Part shown: positions 5,335 through 14,500 of the stretch, piece after piece | Numbering within the stretch: the stretch's first letter is position 1 | How the letters are laid out: each line of letters begins with the position of its first letter | IMG/VR virus record: IMGVR_UViG_3300042509_003092 | Coordinates: 1-22,885 of that record | DNA from: a virus | Direction: 5' to 3' (one strand) | DNA: 22,885 bases | Translations under genes and position numbers: made by a program | Notes under the pieces: generated by a model | Databases searched by the model: none | The model's input: the letters and a program-made list of their open reading frames with translations, nothing else | What the model was told of the DNA's origin: nothing

Positions 5335-5802
5335 CTACATGGGTGCAGAGCCGTTGTCAAGCCGACTTGCGTCTCGTGTTGCCTCGTCAATGGCCCAGGC
5401 GGCGAGGGCCTGCTCGGTGAAGACCGCCGCGGCCCGGCCATCGGTGGCCTCGCAGAACCTGGCCCAGATCCACCCCCGCCGTTGGCTGTTGCCCATGGAG
5501 GAGACATGGGGGTTGAGCACCAACATGCGTTGCTTGGTTCGGGGATCCTTCCAGGTGGCCACCAGCAGCGCCTTTCGCAGCCGCCCGATCGAATGGGCCA
5601 CATGCGAGCCCGAGAGCCCGTAGAGGCTGCCCAGGTGGTCGGGGCTGAGCACCACCGCTCCAAGGGCAGGGATGACGTGCTGTTGCAGCAGTTGCCAGGT
5701 GGAGAGGTCGAGAGGCCGGATGACTCGATCGCTCAGAAGCCCTTGCCACAGCCCTGGCAGCTGGTGGGCCATCACAAAAAACCTCTCGGTGCAAGACTCC
5801 AT
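5335..5802 (-). CDS. Winged-helix DNA-binding protein, RepL-like replication initiator candidate
   Basis: A 155-residue protein, first gene of the leftward operon. Residues about 30-85 form a helix-turn-helix unit (LSPDHLGSLYGLSGSHVAHS, then IGRLRKALLV). A wing-like strand segment, RMLVLNPHVSSMGN (92-105), follows. The order HTH, recognition helix, wing with an (L/I)NPxxxxxGN-like motif resembles plasmid RepL-type initiators, which end their winged helix with a similar NP...G segment. It is also compatible with a repressor. Two starts are possible: ATG at 5802, or ATG at 5772, which has GAGAGG about nine bases upstream. It lies beside a region with a DnaA box, a palindrome and tandem 9-bp repeats, which favours an origin-binding role. 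This is inference from motif and context. Confidence 0.6.
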   Translation of the reverse strand: MESCTERFFVMAHQLPGLWQGLLSDRVIRPLDLSTWQLLQQHVIPALGAVVLSPDHLGSLYGLSGSHVAHSIGRLRKALLVATWKDPRTKQRMLVLNPHVSSMGNSQRRGWIWARFCEATDGRAAAVFTEQALAAWAIDEATRDASRLDNGSAPM

Positions 5803-5899
5803 CTGTCGCCTGCTCTGTGGGGGTTGGCGGCGGAGCCAGTGATCTGCAGTCGTGTTCCCGCACGGCTACAGGGAGGCTCCTGCGCGTCCAAATGTAGCT

Positions 5900-5908
5900 T
5901 GTGGAAAA
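5900..5908 (-). promoter_or_regulatory. DnaA box (TTTTCCACA on minus strand)
   Basis: The plus strand reads TGTGGAAAA, which is TTTTCCACA on the minus strand. This is identical to the DnaA-box consensus reported for the Synechococcus elongatus chromosomal origin. I noticed no other copy of this 9-mer in the window. It sits about 100 bp upstream of the winged-helix initiator candidate. A single box can occur by chance, so the weight comes from the neighbouring repeats. Confidence 0.5.
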
Positions 5909-5956
5909 ACCCCTCTCCAAACAAAACCCAGTCACAGCAAGGGATCTGAATTTCGG

Positions 5957-5977
5957 CTGTGCAGAAAAATTGCACAG
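5957..5977. promoter_or_regulatory. Perfect 7-7-7 inverted repeat, operator candidate
   Basis: CTGTGCA (5957-5963) and TGCACAG (5971-5977) are perfect inverted copies separated by the A+T-rich spacer GAAAAAT. A 21-bp dyad with a 7-bp spacer has the geometry of a dimeric helix-turn-helix operator. It lies about 155 bp upstream of the winged-helix gene and could be its own binding site. Confidence 0.5.
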
Positions 5978-6044
5978 AGCGAGGCGAAAACCCAGATCTG
6001 GACAGGGCTGGGTTGCGTGAGCCTTCTTGATCTCTTAAGTCAGA

Positions 6045-6128
6045 ACACCAGGAACAGCCGAGACAGCCAGAACAGCCAGGGCATCCAGGACAACCCGGGG
6101 CCACCCAGGACCACCCGGAACGACCCGA
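6045..6128 (+). repeat. Nine degenerate 9-bp tandem repeats (iteron-like)
   Basis: Consecutive 9-mers starting at 6045: ACACCAGGA, ACAGCCGAG, ACAGCCAGA, ACAGCCAGG, GCATCCAGG, ACAACCCGG, (2-nt slip) CCACCCAGG, ACCACCCGG, (1-nt slip) ACGACCCGA. The consensus is near ACAnCCAGG. The units are shorter than classical plasmid iterons but lie between the initiator-like gene with its DnaA box and the early genes. An RNA or protein-binding array, or a slippage product, are alternatives. Confidence 0.6.
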
Positions 6129-6149
6129 AGGCCAGAAAGCAAATCCTTA

Positions 6150-6183
6150 CCCCCTTACGGGAAGGGGGGGGCCCGCTTGCGGG
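6150..6183. other. Two adjacent G/C hairpins
   Basis: CCCCCTT (6150-6156) pairs with AAGGGGG (6162-6168) across the loop ACGGG. Directly after it, CCCGC-TT-GCGGG (6172-6183) forms a second short hairpin. No T-run follows on either strand, so a standard intrinsic terminator is not supported. Confidence 0.45.
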
Positions 6184-6536
6184 GGGTCGTCAGACCCGGT
6201 GGATGCCTGTGGTCGCGCCAGCGGCCTCAGGGAGCCACCCCCAGGGGCCTCCAGCGGTGCTCAGGCCCTCCGGGATGGTCGGGACTTCTCGCAGCCCCTC
6301 AAAACCCCACACAGGGCCCAATGGAGCTCTGCACCACTCCAGGGGTTCGGGCAAATCCCTGCAATTTTGGGTCGCCTAATTGAGTGGGGTACCGCTTGGC
6401 GATCCGAGCAGGCGCCCCCCCATGCCCCCTGCCCGGCCGGCCACCAGGGGCGCAGGGGGCCAGGGTGGCCGGCTGTGCTTGGCCAGGGGGCAGCGGCAGC
6501 AGCAGGGGGGCTAAGCCCTTGTGGCTACTGGGCTGA

Positions 6537-6557
6537 TAGCGGACATCATATCCGCTA
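6537..6557. promoter_or_regulatory. Inverted repeat TAGCGGA-N7-TCCGCTA
   Basis: TAGCGGA (6537-6543) and TCCGCTA (6551-6557) are perfect inverted copies around the spacer CATCATA, giving another 21-bp dyad with a 7-bp spacer. It ends only seven bases before the first Fur/Zur-like box. The same arm/spacer geometry as the 5957-5977 dyad suggests a related type of dimeric regulator, although the sequences differ. Confidence 0.45.
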
Positions 6558-6563
6558 CGGGGC

Positions 6564-6582
6564 TGAGAATGATTCTCATTCC
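6564..6582. promoter_or_regulatory. Fur/Zur-family box 1
   Basis: TGAGAATGATTCTCATTCC contains the perfect 7-1-7 palindrome TGAGAAT-G-ATTCTCA. It matches the Fur-family 7-1-7 consensus TGATAATnATTATCA at 12 of 14 arm positions, with symmetric changes at positions 4 and 12. A further half-site TTCTCA follows at 6585-6590. It lies about 200 bp upstream of the first rightward early gene. Confidence 0.55.
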
Positions 6583-6621
6583 CGTTCTCAAGGCCTTGCC
6601 TGCCTGCTGTCCGGAGCGGAT

Positions 6622-6640
6622 TGAGAATGATTCTCATTCC
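6622..6640. promoter_or_regulatory. Fur/Zur-family box 2
   Basis: The 19-bp sequence is identical to the box at 6564-6582 and starts 58 bp later. A -10-like TATGTA follows immediately at 6641-6646, so a protein bound here would cover a rightward promoter. The spacing to a -35-like TTGAGA (6621-6626) is only 14 bp, so the promoter itself is uncertain. Flanking bases of the two copies differ, which argues that the 19-mer itself is what is conserved. Confidence 0.55.
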
Positions 6641-6779
6641 TATGTAAAGATTTGTGACCCTACTCTTTCCGCCCTTCGCCAGTGCTGCACCTGTGCACCT
6701 ATCATCAGGACATCGACGGGCCCGCTGGAGGCCTGAGCCGTCCCTGGCCCTGCCTGTCGTCCTCATTGCTTTCTGATTC

Positions 6780-7127
6780 ATGAAGACCACCACCGATACG
6801 GGTGCAGCCGCCATTGCCGCATCCCTGGCGTTGGCCACCGTGCTGGCCCAGGGATTCGCCGTGTTCCTGGCCCATGGGCTGGCCCTGGCCATTGTTCTGA
6901 CTGAGCTGGTCACGGGTCGCCAGCTGATCCGCGCGGGCCAGGCACCAGCGCCAGCACCAGCACCGGCCGCGCCACCTGTCCAGCCCCTGGTGGCAGTGCC
7001 AGCGGCCGCGGCGCCTGCCCTGGACAGCTTGCCCGTGCGCGAGCTGCGAGCCCTGGCCCGCTCTGCTGGCCACCGCTCGCTAGCCCGCTCCGGGCGCCGA
7101 TCGGAGCTGCTGGCAGCTCTGGCCTGA
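6780..7127 (+). CDS. Membrane protein with C-terminal SAP/Rho_N-like motif
   Basis: A 115-residue protein, first gene of the rightward early region. Residues about 10-43 are strongly hydrophobic (AIAASLALATVLAQGFAVFL, then AHGLALAIVLTEL) and form one or two membrane helices. Residues 55-80 are an Ala/Pro linker. Residues 81-115 (LDSLPVRELRALARSAGHRS, LARSGRRSELLAAL) match the two-helix pattern of SAP or Rho N-terminal motifs, which bind nucleic acid. The protein could tether DNA or RNA to the membrane. The start codon has no clear ribosome binding site, and the upstream region carries the Fur/Zur-like boxes. Function is inferred only from architecture. Confidence 0.6.
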   Translation: MKTTTDTGAAAIAASLALATVLAQGFAVFLAHGLALAIVLTELVTGRQLIRAGQAPAPAPAPAAPPVQPLVAVPAAAAPALDSLPVRELRALARSAGHRSLARSGRRSELLAALA

Positions 7128-7137
7128 TAGGCCGCAA

Positions 7138-7156
7138 ACGTCAAACACCACACCAC
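7138..7156 (+). promoter_or_regulatory. CA-rich start-codon leader element, copy 1
   Basis: ACGTCAAACACCACACCAC ends nine bases before the ATG of the sigma factor gene. No GGAGG-type site is present in the leader. The same core (GTCAA plus ACCACACCAC) recurs at 7773, 8792 (shorter), 10542 and 10791, each time immediately before a start codon. Confidence 0.6.
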
Positions 7157-7165
7157 AAGCACAAC

Positions 7166-7735
7166 ATGGCTAACCGACAGACAAAAACTGATCGACTGAT
7201 CATTGAAAACCTTCCACTCGCCGACAGGCTGGGAGCCAGTGCAGCCAGGCGACTGTGCGGGTTGGCGGAGAAGGATGACTTAATTCAGGAAGCACGAATG
7301 GCGCTAGTTTTAGCTGCCAGAAAATGCGACGAACAAAGAGAACCTACAGCTTACATTATCGCCTCAATTCGCGGAGCTATTCAGCACTACGTAAGGGATA
7401 AAGTCCGTATGGTTCGCGTCTCTCGCCGAGAGCATGAGAAGAGCCGGCCACCATTCGCCCATGCCTCCTTGGATGCCTGCCTGCCGTGCGGCACCCCATT
7501 CGTGGACCTGCTGACCGCTGATCCGGTCACCACCGACCAGGCGGATGAGTCTCCAGAGGAGCTGGAGGCACTGGTGGAACAGTTGCCAGCGGCAGACGCG
7601 GCAGCGCTTCGTCTCACCCTGCTACAGGGCATGTCACTGCGGCAGGCAGGGGAAGCCCTCGGCGTCTCAGTGATGACAGCTCAGCGCAGGAAGGAACGAG
7701 CGGTCAAGGCCATTCGAGAAGCCCTGCAAGCGTGA
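7166..7735 (+). CDS. RNA polymerase sigma factor, sigma-70 family (group 3-like)
   Basis: A 189-residue sigma factor that would redirect host RNA polymerase to phage promoters. Region 2 covers about residues 10-90: LIIENLPLADRL, KDDLIQEARMALVLAARKCD and YIIASIRGAIQHYVRDKVRM, ending VRVSRREHE. This is the pattern of core-binding and -10-recognition segments in SigB/SigF-type factors. Region 4 covers about 132-187, with the helix-turn-helix LRLTLLQGMSLRQAGEALGV followed by SVMTAQRRKERAVKAIREAL. Region 3 appears reduced to a linker. It lies between the membrane/SAP gene and ArdC. The start follows a CA-rich leader. Coexistence with a single-subunit phage RNA polymerase downstream is unusual. Confidence 0.85.
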   Translation: MANRQTKTDRLIIENLPLADRLGASAARRLCGLAEKDDLIQEARMALVLAARKCDEQREPTAYIIASIRGAIQHYVRDKVRMVRVSRREHEKSRPPFAHASLDACLPCGTPFVDLLTADPVTTDQADESPEELEALVEQLPAADAAALRLTLLQGMSLRQAGEALGVSVMTAQRRKERAVKAIREALQA

Positions 7736-7772
7736 GACACGCGGCCCGCCAGAGCCGCACCCAATCCCGGCA

Positions 7773-7792
7773 ACGTCAAAACACCACACCAC
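7773..7792 (+). promoter_or_regulatory. CA-rich start-codon leader element, copy 2
   Basis: ACGTCAAAACACCACACCAC ends three bases before the ATG of the ArdC-like gene. It differs from copy 1 by one extra A. It lies in a 60-bp gap between two genes, so it is not constrained by coding. Confidence 0.6.
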
Positions 7793-7795
7793 GCC

Positions 7796-8743
7796 ATGAC
7801 ATCCACAGCACCACGCAAACGCCGTCAATACGACGGGCCAACGAGCGAGGAAGTTCTAGTCAATAATCTTATTGAATTGATGGAAAGTAGCGACCTTCCG
7901 CCCTGGCGTCGCCCATGGTCTGCCGTCAGTGGTTCCCATCGAAACCTGCTCACCGGGCACGAATACAGGGGCAGCAACCCGATTCTGTTGGAGATTGCAA
8001 GCCTCTGCGGTGGGCATCACCTGCCCCTGTGGCTGGGCGCCAGCCAGGCCAAGCAGCGCGGGTGGTTTCCCAAAAAGGGCACAAAGGCGGCAAGGATTGT
8101 GCGGCCACAACTGAACAGCAGGGAAGAGGAGAATCCTCAGACAGGCGAGAAAGAATTGAAATCATGGGTTAGCTATAAGATCGTGTGCGTTTTCAACGTG
8201 AACGATCTACAGGGAGCCGATGACGCCTCACGGGATTCCCTCGCGGCGGCGATCCTCTCCCAGCTGGATGGCCAGCTTGTGCCTGAGGCCGCAGAGCGCC
8301 ACGATCGAGCCGAGGCCTGCCTGAGTACCTGGGATGTGACGACCACCTGGGGTGGCCAGAAGGCCTACTACTTGCGGTCGTCCGACACGATCCACATGCC
8401 GGCCCGCGAGACGTTCCTCGATCGCGAGGCCTGCTATTCCACCTGGGCCCATGAGACGGCTCACAGCACCGGCCACGAGAGCAGGCTCGCGCGGACCTTT
8501 GGGGTGGTGGGCGAACCGGAATATGCCCGGGAGGAGCTGGTGGCCGAGCTGGCCTGTGTGCTGATCTGCTACCGGCTCCAGGTGGGCACGGAGATGCAGG
8601 ACCACGCGTCCTATCTGAAGGCCTGGGCGGGAATGCTTCGCGATGGCGGGGCGCGCGTGTTGTTCAAGGTGCTGACCGATGCGCGACGCGCGGCAGATCT
8701 GATCTGCCCTGAAGAGGCTCAGGAGGAGACCGCTGAAGGCTGA
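7796..8743 (+). CDS. ArdC-like antirestriction protein (ssDNA-binding domain plus zincin metallopeptidase-like domain)
   Basis: A 315-residue protein. Residues about 15-135 fit the ArdC N-terminal domain (ELMESSDLPPWRRPWSA, then NPILLEIASLCGGHHLPLWL and QAKQRGWFPKKGTKAARIV), which binds single-stranded DNA. Residues about 195-262 fit the zincin-like C-terminal domain: HExxH at 219-223 (HETAH), H227, and the downstream glutamate helix YAREELVAELA (243-253). The metal ligands are all present. ArdC proteins come mainly from plasmids and protect incoming DNA from restriction, and they also occur in phages. The gene lies in the early region after the sigma factor, consistent with defence against host restriction on entry. 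The start is preceded by a CA-rich leader. Confidence 0.88.
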   Translation: MTSTAPRKRRQYDGPTSEEVLVNNLIELMESSDLPPWRRPWSAVSGSHRNLLTGHEYRGSNPILLEIASLCGGHHLPLWLGASQAKQRGWFPKKGTKAARIVRPQLNSREEENPQTGEKELKSWVSYKIVCVFNVNDLQGADDASRDSLAAAILSQLDGQLVPEAAERHDRAEACLSTWDVTTTWGGQKAYYLRSSDTIHMPARETFLDREACYSTWAHETAHSTGHESRLARTFGVVGEPEYAREELVAELACVLICYRLQVGTEMQDHASYLKAWAGMLRDGGARVLFKVLTDARRAADLICPEEAQEETAEG

Positions 8744-8804: not shown

Positions 8805-9338
8805 ATGGCAACAATGAGCAAAAATCAAATACGCCTGCCACTGAATGAGGCAAGGATGATTGCCGAGCGGGTGGTTGCCGAGCTGGAGCCTCACTGTTGG
8901 ATGATCAGCATCGCTGGAAGCATTCGCCGAGAGCGTCCGACCATCGGTGACATCGAGATCGTTTGCGTGCCGCGCCCTTACGACGCCTCGCCGCTGTTTC
9001 AGTCTGGCATCGCCACGGTTGTGAACCAGTGGGAAGCGGTGCGTGGAGAGCTGCCTTGCAAGTACACCCAGCGAAAATTGCCCGAGGGGATGAATCTGGA
9101 CCTGTTCATGGTCAATCCTGAAGGGTGGGGCTTGCAGCTGGCGATCCGCACTGGCTCCGCCAGCTGGTGTCGTGAGGTGCTCGCAAAGGCCTGGGTTCGC
9201 GCAGGATTCCGTTCCAAGGATGGCCTACTGCGCAACAAGCTAGGTGCGGGCACCGTGCAATTTGTTCGCACTGAGCGCGAGCTGTTCGAGATTATCGACC
9301 TGCCGTGGGTTGAGCCTGTAGACCGTGAATTCCCTTAA
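8805..9338 (+). CDS. DNA polymerase X-like nucleotidyltransferase
   Basis: A 177-residue protein with the palm and finger signature of family X polymerases: AGSIRRERPTIGDIEIVCVP (37-56) with the GS...RR motif and the acidic pair D49/E51, the third acid D99 in NLDLFMV, the RTGSASW motif (115-121) for nucleotide binding, and a C-terminal DLPWVEPVDRE (165-175) like the end of Pol beta-type enzymes. It lacks the 8-kDa lyase domain, so it is shorter than repair PolX. Similar short proteins are known in phages. It may fill gaps or extend ends. It is too small and of the wrong family to be the main replicase. The start is ATG 8805 after a CA-rich leader. A second ATG is at 8814. Confidence 0.82.
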   Translation: MATMSKNQIRLPLNEARMIAERVVAELEPHCWMISIAGSIRRERPTIGDIEIVCVPRPYDASPLFQSGIATVVNQWEAVRGELPCKYTQRKLPEGMNLDLFMVNPEGWGLQLAIRTGSASWCREVLAKAWVRAGFRSKDGLLRNKLGAGTVQFVRTERELFEIIDLPWVEPVDREFP

Positions 9339-9755: not shown

Positions 9756-10108
9756 GCCAAGACCTGGCCCGTGGCCTTGCCGAGTGGCTGGGGGAAGTGC
9801 GGAGCGTTGCGCCTGGCCTTTCCCTGGCTGCGCTTGAGGCCTTCCTATGGGTTGGCAGCGGGTCCGACTCCTCGGACGCAGTGCATACCCGAATGGCGGC
9901 CGGTGCGCCCCTGGCCAAGCCGACGGTCACCCGTGCCCTGGGTCTGCTGCGGGGGCGGGGGCAGTGGAGGTCTGACCACTGGGTCAAGCCGCTGGACTGG
10001 CTGGAGGGGAGGCCCCATCCCCACGTTGCGCGAGCGATCGCTTATCGACTGTCCAGGCAGGGGCGGAAGATTCTAGCCTCGCTTAGTACGCTTGTTCTAC
10101 CATCATGA
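9752..10108 (+). CDS. MarR-like winged-helix regulator (first of two)
   Basis: A 118-residue protein with a MarR-like layout: helix LSLAALEAFLWVGSG, HTH region with PLAKPTVTRALGLLRGRG (about 56-73), a wing-like stretch, and a C-terminal segment AIAYRLSRQGRKILASL (about 93-109). The last part mirrors the xxLTxxGxxL motif that closes the wing in MarR proteins. The start has the clearest Shine-Dalgarno site of the early region (GGAGGAGATC before ATG), in contrast to its neighbours with CA-rich leaders. It may control lysogeny or early genes together with the second MarR-like gene. Confidence 0.6.
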   Translation: MSQDLARGLAEWLGEVRSVAPGLSLAALEAFLWVGSGSDSSDAVHTRMAAGAPLAKPTVTRALGLLRGRGQWRSDHWVKPLDWLEGRPHPHVARAIAYRLSRQGRKILASLSTLVLPS

Positions 10109-10383
10109 CCCGGCTTGTGTTTGGCCTTGCCATCCCTCAGGTTTTCCGGCCCGGCTGGGCGGGGGTCACCATCCACGTACGGCAAGGGATGGTTTTCGTA
10201 CACTGGTGGAAGACAGAGCGACACAAGCACCTAGGGCCATGGGTTTTCTGGAGCTACAGAGGTGCATTGGCCTTTTCGCGGTGCTTGATCCGCAGATGCC
10301 TTTGCATTTCATGCAGATATTTCTGCACGTGGCTCAGGGGCCCGCAGAAGGGCTCACGTATCGGGAGCTGGAGGAGGCAATGA
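10105..10383 (+). CDS. Possible small protein overlapping the second MarR-like gene
   Basis: A 92-residue frame that starts with an ATGA overlap on the preceding gene and would fill the 130-bp gap before the next regulator. Its first 45 residues (TRLVFGLAIPQVF, VTIHVRQGMVFVHWW) have protein-like hydrophobic alternation. The remainder overlaps the MarR-like gene and is Cys/Arg/Trp-rich, which looks like an out-of-frame reading. It may be a short gene with a fortuitous tail or no gene at all. Confidence 0.3.
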   Translation: MTRLVFGLAIPQVFRPGWAGVTIHVRQGMVFVHWWKTERHKHLGPWVFWSYRGALAFSRCLIRRCLCISCRYFCTWLRGPQKGSRIGSWRRQ

Positions 10384-10571
10384 GCCTCACCAACTCCAGC
10401 GTCTCCCGAACACTTGATGCCCTGGGAGAGGAGCACAGAAAGGGATATCGAGGCTATGGCCTCATCGAAAGGAAGCCAGACCCTGCCGATTCCCGACGGC
10501 TACGGGTCTTCCTTTCCGCCAGGGGCCACGCCCTGGCCAACCAAATCGTCAACCACACCACACAATCATGA
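10239..10571 (+). CDS. MarR-like winged-helix regulator (second)
   Basis: A 110-residue protein with good MarR features: dimerisation-type N-terminal helices (LELQRCIGLFAVL, MPLHFMQIFLHVAQG), the HTH LTYRELEEAMSLTNSSVSRT with following LDALGEE, a wing with LIERKPDPADSRRLRVFLSA, and the closing ARGHALANQI. The DPxDxRxxxxxLxxxG wing motif is the classic MarR signature. The last codons (NQIVNHTT) run through a 24-bp sequence that is repeated before the integrase. The stop overlaps the next start (ATGA). It is a likely lysogeny or early-gene regulator beside the integrase. Confidence 0.75.
   Translation: MGFLELQRCIGLFAVLDPQMPLHFMQIFLHVAQGPAEGLTYRELEEAMSLTNSSVSRTLDALGEEHRKGYRGYGLIERKPDPADSRRLRVFLSARGHALANQIVNHTTQS
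10542..10565 (+). repeat. 24-bp direct repeat / CA-rich leader, copy A
   Basis: A 24-bp sequence with the core GTCAACCACACCACACAA that is identical to 10791-10814. Here it lies in the last codons of the MarR-like gene and ends two bases before the ATG of the next gene. It carries the same CA-rich leader theme found before the sigma, ArdC and PolX-like genes. Confidence 0.85.
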
Positions 10572-10777
10572 AGACTGTCGAAGACGTTCTCGCCGACACC
10601 GCCGTCGGATGTGGCTTCCACGATTTCGCCGTCGAAGGCGGCACAATCCGAGTCACAACTCAGAAGCTGCGGGCGGCATTGGAAGCTGCCTATGACGAGA
10701 CCAACCCAAACTGGGTTGTGTTTGTTGATATAGAGGAAGGCGATGAGATAGAAGAAGACGACGATTTGAGAATCTGA
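10568..10777 (+). CDS. Small acidic protein
   Basis: A 69-residue protein. The N-terminal part alternates short helices and strands (MKTVEDVLADTAVGCGFHDF). The middle contains TTQKLRAALEAAYDETNPNW. The C-terminus is very acidic (VDIEEGDEIEEDDDLRI), with about ten acidic residues in the last seventeen. Strongly acidic small phage proteins often mimic DNA or inhibit host enzymes, but no family can be named. It lies between two identical 24-bp leader repeats, just upstream of the integrase, and could be a small cassette with its own leader. Confidence 0.55.
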   Translation: MKTVEDVLADTAVGCGFHDFAVEGGTIRVTTQKLRAALEAAYDETNPNWVVFVDIEEGDEIEEDDDLRI

Positions 10778-10790
10778 TTGAGCTGAGCGA

Positions 10791-10814
10791 CAAATCGTCA
10801 ACCACACCACACAA
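10791..10814 (+). repeat. 24-bp direct repeat / CA-rich leader, copy B
   Basis: This copy is identical over 24 bp to 10542-10565, but here it is non-coding and lies four bases before the GTG start of the integrase. The conservation outside a coding context argues that the sequence itself matters. Confidence 0.85.
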
Positions 10815-10818
10815 GACA

Positions 10819-11826
10819 GTGAAAACAGGATCAGTGAGGCGAGACCCCAGCGGCCGGGGGTGGATCGCTGACGTCAGCATCGACGGCAGAAGGAAGACCG
10901 CGCGCGCGAGCACCAAGGCCGAGGCCGAGGCCAAGCGCAGAGGCCTCCTGCAGACGCTGCTCGACGGCCCGCCGGCGTCGCGCCCACGGCCTGCCGCGGC
11001 CTTCACCTTGGCGGATGCCCGCCGCCTGAGCCTTCAGGTTCGCTGGGCTGGCAAGGCCTATGAGCGAACTGCTGCCATCTTCTCTCGCGCGGTACTCGAT
11101 GGGCTGGGCGAGGACCTGGGGGTGGAGGAGGTGACGCCACCCATGGTGATCGCCTGGCGCCAGAAGCTCCTCGATGGGGGGAACACCCCATCCACGTGCA
11201 ACAAGAAAGTCTCCGCCCTCGCGGCGATGCTTCGGGACGCGGTGAACTGCGGCCACCTGGCTGCCATGCCGAGCCTGCCCCAGCAGCTCAGCCCGGGCGG
11301 CCATCGGGACCGGGTGTTCCAGCCCGAGGAGACGGCCATGTTGTGCCGTTGGTTTAAGCAGGCGGGCCACCCCGCCGCGGCCGATCTGCTGGTGTTCCTG
11401 CTGGAGACGGCGGCCCGATGGGGGGAGGCGGAGAGGTTGCGTGGGCGAGACATCAACTTGGAGGGCAGGAAATGCACCTTCTGGCGCACGAAGAACGGGG
11501 ATCCCCGGACCATCCCCCTCACAAGGCGGGCGGTAGATGCCCTGGAGCGCAACATGCCCCCGAAGGAGACCCACAGGATCTGGCCTTACAGCTACCTGCA
11601 GTACAACAGGCTCTTCAACAAGGCGATCGCCAGCGCGGGGCTGGAGGGGCTGACGGTGCACATCACCCGCCACACGGCGGCAACCCGGATGGCCGAGGGG
11701 GGCGTGAGCCAGGCACAGCTCATGGCCTACGGGGGGTGGCGGAGCCTGGCCGCTGTTCAGCGCTACATGCACGTGCAGACAGAGCGGTTGGCAGACTGCG
11801 TCAAGGCCCTGGAGGACGGGTCGTGA
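10819..11826 (+). CDS. int: Tyrosine recombinase/integrase
   Basis: A 335-residue integrase that would insert phage DNA into the host tRNA-Leu gene. The N-terminal arm-binding-like part is residues 10-40 (SGRGWIADVSIDGRRKTARA). The core-binding domain spans about 65-155, and the catalytic domain about 165-330. Active-site residues are visible: R200 (TAARWGEAERL), K225 (FWRTKNGD), H281 and R284 (VHITRHTAAT), W307 in the place of the second His (GGWRSL), and Y316 (AAVQRYMHV). The start is GTG at 10819, immediately after a 24-bp CA-rich repeat, with no in-frame ATG close by. Downstream lie a large dyad (11863-11914) and a tRNA-Leu fragment (11949-11990), the attachment region. The set is complete, so the enzyme should be active. 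Confidence 0.93.
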   Translation: MKTGSVRRDPSGRGWIADVSIDGRRKTARASTKAEAEAKRRGLLQTLLDGPPASRPRPAAAFTLADARRLSLQVRWAGKAYERTAAIFSRAVLDGLGEDLGVEEVTPPMVIAWRQKLLDGGNTPSTCNKKVSALAAMLRDAVNCGHLAAMPSLPQQLSPGGHRDRVFQPEETAMLCRWFKQAGHPAAADLLVFLLETAARWGEAERLRGRDINLEGRKCTFWRTKNGDPRTIPLTRRAVDALERNMPPKETHRIWPYSYLQYNRLFNKAIASAGLEGLTVHITRHTAATRMAEGGVSQAQLMAYGGWRSLAAVQRYMHVQTERLADCVKALEDGS

Positions 11827-11862
11827 CAGGCGATGGGTAGGCGCGTCTACCAGGCCCCGCCT

Positions 11863-11914
11863 TGATGCGTCATTGATGCCGCAGCACGCTTGCCGGCGCA
11901 TCAGTGACGCATCA
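11863..11914. promoter_or_regulatory. 17-bp inverted repeat, candidate integrase arm sites
   Basis: TGATGCGTCATTGATGC (11863-11879) and GCATCAGTGACGCATCA (11898-11914) are inverted copies matching at 16 of 17 positions around an 18-nt spacer. Each arm holds two TGATGC units 11 bp apart, one helical turn. They lie between the integrase stop and the tRNA fragment, where arm-type sites are expected. No T-run follows, so a terminator is less likely. Confidence 0.6.
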
Positions 11915-11948
11915 GCTAGGTTGGTCAAACCCCAGTCGGGGTCAGCAA

Positions 11949-12077: not shown

Positions 12078-12115
12078 GAGCAGAATTGCTGCGTCCGGCA
12101 CCACACCAGGCAGCA

Positions 12116-14500
12116 ATGTCAGCATCACGCAGCGCGTCCACCCGCGAACAGGAAGGGCGAGAGAGGCACGAGGAACAACGGAGTCGAGAGCGAATAGCGA
12201 ATACCGAAAGCTCCCTGCGAGCGGCTGGAAGAGAAACAAGAACGGCCGCTGGGCGAAAGGTTTTCCGAGACGCCGCCACTCCCCTGGCGCGAGCACTCGA
12301 AAACCTGCTGGCGGAGAACCTCCAGAACCCGGTGGCCGGGGTCGGCCATGCGGCGCTGGATCTGGTGGCCCGCTTCAGACACCCGAATTATGTGGCGGTG
12401 ACCGCCCTGCGGGTGGTCCTGGACCAAATCTCAGGGGCGAGGCCCTACACCGCCCTGGCGATCCGGATTGGGCAGGCCATCGAGAGCGAGCTCAAGGGTG
12501 AGGCCCTTGTGCATGCCGCGCCCCAGCTGACCACCTCGATCCAGCGGCGCTACGGCCCGCGCGCCGTTCTGAAGGAGCGGGTCGCTGCCCGGGTGGCACC
12601 GATGAACCACCACGAACCATGGTCATCGCGGGGACACGCGCAAGCCGGGGCCCTGATGCTCCAGCTCATGGAGCGCATCGGCCTGATTGAAACGACGCTG
12701 GCGACCACCGGCACCAAGCGACCGCGAATGGTGGTGCCCTCCACGGAGGTCATCGCCCTGGCCGAGGGTGTGCACGACCAGTTCTGGGCGCCGAGCCGTG
12801 GGCCAATGGTGGTGCCACCACAGGATTGGTCTGGTTTGACCGGCGGAGGCCACCTGTCCGGGGGGTGGCTGGTGCGAGATCGATCCTGCGAAACCCAGGA
12901 GCTCCACAACCGGTTTGACCGACAGGCCATTCAGCGGTTCGGTCAGATCGCCAACGTGCAGCAAGGCGTTCCCCTCTGGGTTGATCCGGAGATGGTGTCT
13001 CTTGCCATTCAGGCCTGGGAGAACGGGGGCCTCGGGTTGTTCAAGGTGGATCGGGCGCCGGCGCCACTCCCGCCAACGCCCCCACAGGATGCGCCGAAGG
13101 AGGTGTGGACTGCTTGGAAGCGGGCCGCCGCCGCGCACCATGCGGATCTGCGGGAGAACGTGGGCCGACGGGTGCGGATTTCCCGGGGCCTGCGGGAACT
13201 GGGGGAGCTGGCTGGCCGGGAGATCTACCAAGCCCACTGGTTTGACGGACGGGGCCGTCTCTACACCAGGAACAGGCACGCCTCCACCCAGGGGCAGGAC
13301 GTTGAGAAGGGGTGCATCGCGTTCGCGAAGAACTGGGCTGCCTCCGATGGAGCTGATCTCTCCACCTTGGCAGAAGAAGCCTGCCGGCGCCATGGATCGC
13401 CAGTCACCTTGTCGCTTCATGTCGGGAGGCTGGACAGCCCGTTGGACCACCTTGAGCTGTGGCGCGACGCCAAAGACCCGTGGCAATTTCTTCAGGCCGC
13501 GCGGGCTTATGCCAAGCGGAGCCGAGGTTGTTTCACGAGGAACACCCCTGGCCGCCTGGATCAGACCTGCTCGGGCTGCGGGATTATCGCCGCGCTCACG
13601 CGGGATCGCTGGCTGGCAAGGCAAACCAACGTCATAGGGGACGAGGTGTCCGATCTGTACCTCACCCTGGCCCGGAAGCTGGAGGAGCTGCTCACCGCGG
13701 TGTTGCACACCTCGGCGCCGGGCACGGAAGACTTTCGTTGGGCGGAGATGTTTCTCCAGCTCGGCATCACCAGATCCACGGTGAAGCCCATCGTTCTGGC
13801 CCTGCCCTACGGGGGCCAGCGGCTGGGGATGGTTGGGGCGTTCGAGGACTACCTTTCCGCTGCCATTGGCTGGCAGGACCCGGCGGTCTACGTGGACCGA
13901 GTCTCGCGCCCATCCGCTTGGCTGGCCAAGCAGTTCAGCAAGATCCTGCAGGAGGACATGGGGTCGGCCCTGGCCTTCCGGCGGTGGGCGAGGGATCTGG
14001 TCAAGGCTGTGATTCCGGTCACGGATTCAGCCATTCAGTGGCGGTCCCCATCGGGGTGGCCGATGCGGCTGGGTGCCACGAAATCCAGCGAGACGGTGGT
14101 GCGCACCGAGTTTTTCGGTGTCGCTCGATTGATGACCCTGCAGGAGGAAGACCCCGGGGCAGAGCTGAGCGCCCTGGCCACGGCGGGGAGCGCCGCAGCC
14201 AACATCGTGCACGGCTTGGATGCGGCGGTGGTGCACTTGGCTGTTCGGCGAGTGCGGGGGCCAATGCTGACGAACCACGACTGCTTCGCGGTGCCATGGC
14301 CTCAAACCGGGGAGCTGCACCAGGAGCTTCTGCGGACGTTCCGCCAAACGATGGAAGAGGCGGTGGCTGAGTTGCTGGGGCAGGTCGAAGAGGGATGCAG
14401 GGGTGCAGTGTCGGATTTCCCAGGCCTGCCAGCGTTTCCATTTGCGGGAGAGCCATGGGCAGAGGGAGAACTGGCAAGCAACCCGGCCATGTATGGATGA
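12116..14500 (+). CDS. Single-subunit DNA-dependent RNA polymerase (T7 gp1-like)
   Basis: About 794 residues from the ATG at 12116 (a TTG at 12086 would add ten). T7 RNA polymerase has 883. The palm and finger motifs are visible: HWFDGRGRLYTRNR (T7 DWRGRVYA equivalent), the first catalytic Asp in RLDQTCSGCGI (D482, T7 D537 equivalent), the nucleotide-binding helix ITRSTVKPIVLALPYGG with K557 and Y565 (T7 K631 and Y639), and the second catalytic Asp in NHDCFAVP (D722, T7 D812). The N-terminal domain, which contacts promoters in T7, is shorter and very basic at the start. The ATG follows a degenerate CA-rich leader (CACCACACCAGGCAGCA). The gene lies just after the attachment region and before SSB, as in T7-like cyanophages, and would transcribe middle and late genes. 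Confidence 0.93.
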   Translation: MSASRSASTREQEGRERHEEQRSRERIANTESSLRAAGRETRTAAGRKVFRDAATPLARALENLLAENLQNPVAGVGHAALDLVARFRHPNYVAVTALRVVLDQISGARPYTALAIRIGQAIESELKGEALVHAAPQLTTSIQRRYGPRAVLKERVAARVAPMNHHEPWSSRGHAQAGALMLQLMERIGLIETTLATTGTKRPRMVVPSTEVIALAEGVHDQFWAPSRGPMVVPPQDWSGLTGGGHLSGGWLVRDRSCETQELHNRFDRQAIQRFGQIANVQQGVPLWVDPEMVSLAIQAWENGGLGLFKVDRAPAPLPPTPPQDAPKEVWTAWKRAAAAHHADLRENVGRRVRISRGLRELGELAGREIYQAHWFDGRGRLYTRNRHASTQGQDVEKGCIAFAKNWAASDGADLSTLAEEACRRHGSPVTLSLHVGRLDSPLDHLELWRDAKDPWQFLQAARAYAKRSRGCFTRNTPGRLDQTCSGCGIIAALTRDRWLARQTNVIGDEVSDLYLTLARKLEELLTAVLHTSAPGTEDFRWAEMFLQLGITRSTVKPIVLALPYGGQRLGMVGAFEDYLSAAIGWQDPAVYVDRVSRPSAWLAKQFSKILQEDMGSALAFRRWARDLVKAVIPVTDSAIQWRSPSGWPMRLGATKSSETVVRTEFFGVARLMTLQEEDPGAELSALATAGSAAANIVHGLDAAVVHLAVRRVRGPMLTNHDCFAVPWPQTGELHQELLRTFRQTMEEAVAELLGQVEEGCRGAVSDFPGLPAFPFAGEPWAEGELASNPAMYG

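Follow-up and report, generated by a model that had tools for sequence, protein, structure and literature searches.

The early operon of an integrase-bearing, T7-like (Autographiviridae-type) freshwater cyanobacterial phage is preceded by a divergent control region containing two identical palindromic boxes. We predict, with reasonable confidence, that these boxes are operators for Zur, the zinc sensor of the host. Judging from the box sequence and its recurrence at this place in distant relatives, these phages probably read the zinc state of the host, and the early control region probably senses zinc via Zur in interplay with RpaB, the cyanobacterial light/redox regulator. If this is true, the zinc state, and probably also the light/redox state, of an abundant primary producer would be tied to the viral infection programme through the host's own sensors. 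The use of host regulators by phages is already known in kind. The earlier note knew of no description of metal control in a T7-like phage, and we likewise found no report that places host Zur at the early control region of a cyanophage in the open-access papers searched.

Two identical boxes precede the early operon

The window, that is, the whole stretch of DNA analysed, is an entire IMG/VR record of 22,885 bases that probably covers the phage genome only in part. It encodes a single-subunit RNA polymerase (Table 1) together with a terminase and a capsid protein related to those of Synechococcus phage S-SRP02, which places the phage in the Autographiviridae type. The early operon begins with a small protein, a sigma factor and an ArdC-like protein, and continues to the MarR-like regulator, the integrase and the phage RNA polymerase.

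The 19-mer TGAGAATGATTCTCATTCC occurs exactly at 6564-6582 and 6622-6640 on the plus strand, 58 bp apart from start to start, and the sequence outside the repeats differs. When 3 mismatches were allowed, dinucleotide-preserving shuffles averaged 0.01 matches, and the only other hits in the window came from the minus strand of these two palindromes. A reversed control pattern gave 0 pairs in viral contigs, compared with 47 stretches for the real pattern. A chance repeat was ruled out by these two controls. The 15-mer core, TGAGAATGATTCTCA, is a perfect 7-1-7 palindrome that agrees with the Fur-family consensus TGATAATNATTATCA at 12 of 14 arm positions, and a one-sided ATTCC extension lies beside this symmetric core. 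Box 1 extends further to a 27-mer, TGAGAATGATTCTCATTCCCGTTCTCA (6564-6590), which recurs in relatives. The earlier note had described the repeated 19-mer, its non-coding surroundings with differing flanks and its Fur-like palindrome; all were recovered on recounting. Its placing of a Fur-superfamily box before the early operon of a T7-like cyanobacterial phage is upheld.

Table 1. Features of the control region and of the neighbouring genes in the window.
Feature	Position	Strand	Remarks
Divergent leftward gene, left of the gap	5335..5802	-	No Pfam/PHROG match; 26-34% identity in relatives, 99% in the closest contig
Divergent gap holding both boxes	5803-6779		Between leftward ORF 5335-5802 and rightward ORF 6780-7127
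Palindrome TAGCGGACATCATATCCGCTA	6537..6557	.	6 bp to the left of box 1; S-SRP02 has a similar one in its gap
Box 1	6564..6590	+	7-1-7 Zur-type palindrome; core 6564-6578; one-sided extension TTCCCGTTCTCA
Box 2	6622..6640	+	19-mer identical to that of box 1; core 6622-6636
HLR1-like element (candidate RpaB site), GTCACAAATCTTTACATA	6641..6658	-	15/16 specified positions; abuts box 2
Sigma-70-like promoter candidate, TCGCCA-18-TATCAT	6676..6705	+	Weak; sole one in the gap; 1 found vs 0.2 expected in shuffles
First rightward ORF, 115 aa	6780..7127	+	Family match: none
Sigma-70-family factor	7166..7735	+	Regions 2 and 4
ArdC-like anti-restriction protein	7796..8743	+	Zincin-like domain
Polymerase-beta-like protein	8805-9338		In the rightward series
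MarR-like regulator	10092..10571	+	phrog_9665
Tyrosine integrase	10819..11826	+	
T7-like RNA polymerase	12086..14500	+	PF00940, phrog_414

Host genomes favour a Zur over a Fur reading of the boxes

The host family, Cyanobiaceae, was reached via a contig of the MAG Synechococcaceae WB9_2_112 that encodes a related RNA polymerase. To limit circularity, we gathered znuA orthologues by protein search and let the motif converge in the upstream regions of 21 Cyanobiaceae genomes; the starting motif was mostly generic for the Fur family, with TGAGAATCATTCTCA as one of four seeds. The converged motif was TGAGAAT(C/G)ATTCTCA. Scored against this motif, which represents the host family as a whole, both phage boxes reached 27.0 bits and outscored every left-out znuA site of the 21-genome set (9.0-24.0 bits).

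The exact core was present in 9 of 201 genomes of the host family. Four of the nine copies precede znuA-znuC or a COG0523 GTPase gene, and one copy before a zinc gene has a FUR-family gene as its other neighbour. The remaining copies comprise two in integrated elements, two that resemble long hairpins and one within a coding frame. Five GC-rich genomes contained 4-6 sites each with at most 2 mismatches; these sites were found at znuA and, in several cases, before COG0523 genes, and the rest were mostly in coding sequence.

The published cyanobacterial Zur consensus, NTNANAATGATNATCATTNTNAN (PMC9337993), agrees with box 1 at 13 and with box 2 at 14 of 16 specified positions, as counted by eye. 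One host genome (locus L071) has as its znuA site the variant TGAGAATGGTTCCCA, which four relatives of the phage also carry. Known Zur boxes of cyanobacterial znuA and bmtA (Synechococcus WH8102 SynZur, PMC9337993; RegPrecise consensus) share the 7-1-7 palindrome and the consensus with the phage boxes; those of bmtA are paired, as in the phage (PMC9337993), and some host znuA sites have a TTCTA-type extension similar to that of the phage boxes. These known boxes are on host DNA; the candidate operators described here are on phage DNA, before phage early genes. Capture of a host znuA promoter was rejected as an origin, because by eye the phage flanks are unlike host znuA flanks beyond the short extension.

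Because exact and near-exact host copies precede zinc genes, and in view of the motif scores and the published consensus, we read the boxes as Zur-type. The comparison of the 15-mer with host motifs, which the earlier note had proposed, thus points to the host Zur box rather than the Fur box. Its suggestion that iron or zinc controls the early genes gains support for zinc from the Zur-box match and the host znuABC and COG0523 sites; no support was found for iron.

Iron remains the chief alternative to zinc. The host iron regulator would then bind a Fur box and place the early genes under iron control, as might be argued from the 12 arm positions shared with a consensus general to the Fur family and from the presence of TGAGAATGATTCTCATTC in enterobacterial phages, where Fur would be the natural reader. 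In the host family, however, it is zinc genes that the exact sequence precedes, and no iron genes were seen beside the near-matches examined in the five GC-rich genomes. The upstream regions of flavodoxin likewise contained no such palindrome, a weak argument, as the genomes were mostly AT-rich and are uninformative for GC-rich hosts. We consider control by Fur unlikely.

An HLR1-like element abuts box 2

The element next to box 2 resembles HLR1 and, RpaB being a cyanobacterial protein, also fits cyanobacterial hosts. HLR1 is a direct repeat, KTTACAWW-N2-KTTACAWW, bound by RpaB (PMC13421787, PMC11633204); the copy in the window lies on phage DNA, in reverse orientation to the early operon. HLR1-like sites with at most 2 mismatches numbered 10 in 12.1 kb of half-gap sequence and 0 in 433.6 kb elsewhere (22 loci), a ratio that is indicative and not a p-value, since the half-gap was picked after the sites had been seen, some loci are closely related and a single element may be counted on both strands. 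An HLR1-like element was also observed in the gap of most relatives, several of them without a Zur box; no clear HLR1 was found in S-SRP02 or marine S31-C1.

A scan of the gap yielded no convincing promoter overlapping the boxes. RpaB sites at -66 to -45 activate, and those overlapping the start site repress (PMC13421787, PMC11633204). Only if the weak promoter candidate (Table 1) is correct would the HLR1 centre fall near -62, close to the activating positions published for RpaB, with the Zur boxes further upstream.

Under sufficient zinc, Zn-loaded Zur dimers would occupy both boxes. Because box 2 abuts the candidate RpaB site, bound Zur would be expected to hinder RpaB and/or the host RNA polymerase, holding early-operon expression low; a drop in zinc would release Zur from the boxes and allow the early operon to be expressed. 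Repression by Zur seems likelier than activation. Activation at the phage boxes is possible by analogy with bmtA, which Synechococcus Zur also activates from a promoter with two Zur boxes (PMC9337993).

The box recurs at one place yet appears dispensable

The closest contig, IMGVR_UViG_3300008113_000336, retains both boxes and their spacing. Its gap shows 61 differences from that of the window in 993 columns, so that it is too near for its intact boxes alone to prove constraint. The isolate Synechococcus phage S-SRP02 (Autographiviridae, PMC8790148) is more distant, with 54% identity in the terminase, 47% in the capsid protein and 33% in the RNA polymerase. It shares the gene order of the window (terminase leftward, gap, MarR, integrase, RNA polymerase) and carries a box of 24.6 bits in the syntenic gap, which reads TGAGAATGATTCCCATTCTTGTTCTCA where the window has TGAGAATGATTCTCATTCCCGTTCTCA. 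S-SRP02 differs from the window in its single box, its lack of a clear HLR1 and its other first genes, and the box is unmentioned in its description (PMC8790148). As S-SRP02 is an isolated phage with an isolated host, the zinc-sensing idea is testable now.

The RNA polymerase relatives L212, L215, L229, L251, L252, L253, L256 and L263 also carry a box in the gap, as does L260, in which the module is inverted along with its box. Roughly half of the relatives that share this gap lack the box. On a tree of 30 RNA polymerases the phages with a box do not cluster, and at least 9 gains or losses are required; these two results indicate that the box is not essential. L230 and L251, which form the closest pair, have closely similar flanks and differ in the box segment.

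An operator for a phage-encoded regulator, namely the MarR-like protein or the product of 5335-5802, with the likeness to Zur boxes a coincidence, would suit the frequency of paired palindromes among phage operators, and both genes are conserved beside the gap. These genes are, however, equally present in relatives that lack the box, and the box follows the host znuA consensus down to its tolerated variants. We regard such an operator as improbable, and both products were dropped as candidates, neither gene being associated with box presence. A separate palindrome, AGCGGA...TCCGCT (6537-6557 in the window; L192:10608; L216 gap), shares the gap with the box in both the window and S-SRP02; in S-SRP02 and L216 its distance upstream of the box is about 30-100 bp. 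It is a candidate operator of a phage regulator.

Titration offers another explanation, in which strong Zur sites would soak up host Zur during replication and thereby switch on host zinc uptake. The phage sites fit the consensus better than host sites do, and other phages have 3-6 copies, some of them between convergent genes. In this clade, by contrast, the box is single or double, sits in the divergent control gap and keeps the orientation of the early operon even in the inverted module, and there is little likelihood that titration explains it. A role of the palindromes as RNA hairpins or terminators is the least probable. Each box does fold into a short hairpin (z -2.7 and -1.9), but no terminators were called at the boxes, TGAGAATGRTTCCCA in most relatives breaks a pair with no compensating change, and folding of the S-SRP02 box is not better than that of shuffled sequence. 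This explanation was dropped, as folding is not conserved in relatives.

Returning to Zur operators, we propose more tentatively, and at somewhat less than even confidence, a scheme for the whole clade of integrase-bearing cyanobacterial T7-like phages. In their early control, abutting sites may combine input from Zur (zinc) with input from RpaB (light/redox), and the zinc part would be a swappable module that was repeatedly gained and lost. Host repressors are known to act on phages: Fur controls stx1, and LexA controls some prophages. There, as proposed here, a phage promoter responds to a stress sensor of the host; the present case would differ in involving a zinc sensor, a cyanobacterial phage and an early control region instead of a cargo gene.

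Similar boxes in other mobile elements and a repeated leader

Zur-type boxes were also seen in mobile elements of host genomes. In genome G122, an HK97-type capsid gene (13149-14297) is preceded at about 390 bp by tandem boxes (L087:12727-12762); this second, unrelated integrase-primase element ends near a tRNA and znuA. In genome G124, an integrated element contains one exact intergenic box (L119:9950), next to a minus-strand integrase gene (10624-11946).

Unrelated viral loci (L006, L008, L010, L019, L152, L175 and others) carry 1-6 copies of TGAGAAYSRTTCTCA. In several phages these copies lie between convergent genes and therefore cannot be simple promoter operators there; they possibly serve titration as decoy sites. 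Many enterobacterial isolate phages (BF23, OR083247 9221-9247; NR01, fp01, PVPSE1, CR3 and many others) contain TGAGAATGATTCTCATTC or close variants, which are possibly Fur-related; the site in BF23 falls within the left terminal repeat, in its long non-coding portion.

Within the early operon of the window, near-identical leaders, ACGTCAAA(A)CACCACACCAC, are located at 7138-7160 and 7772-7795, directly 5' of the start codons (ATG) of the genes for the sigma factor and ArdC. They may represent a phage promoter or a translation signal, and the leader region includes a 54-base stretch 85% matching phage S-H1.
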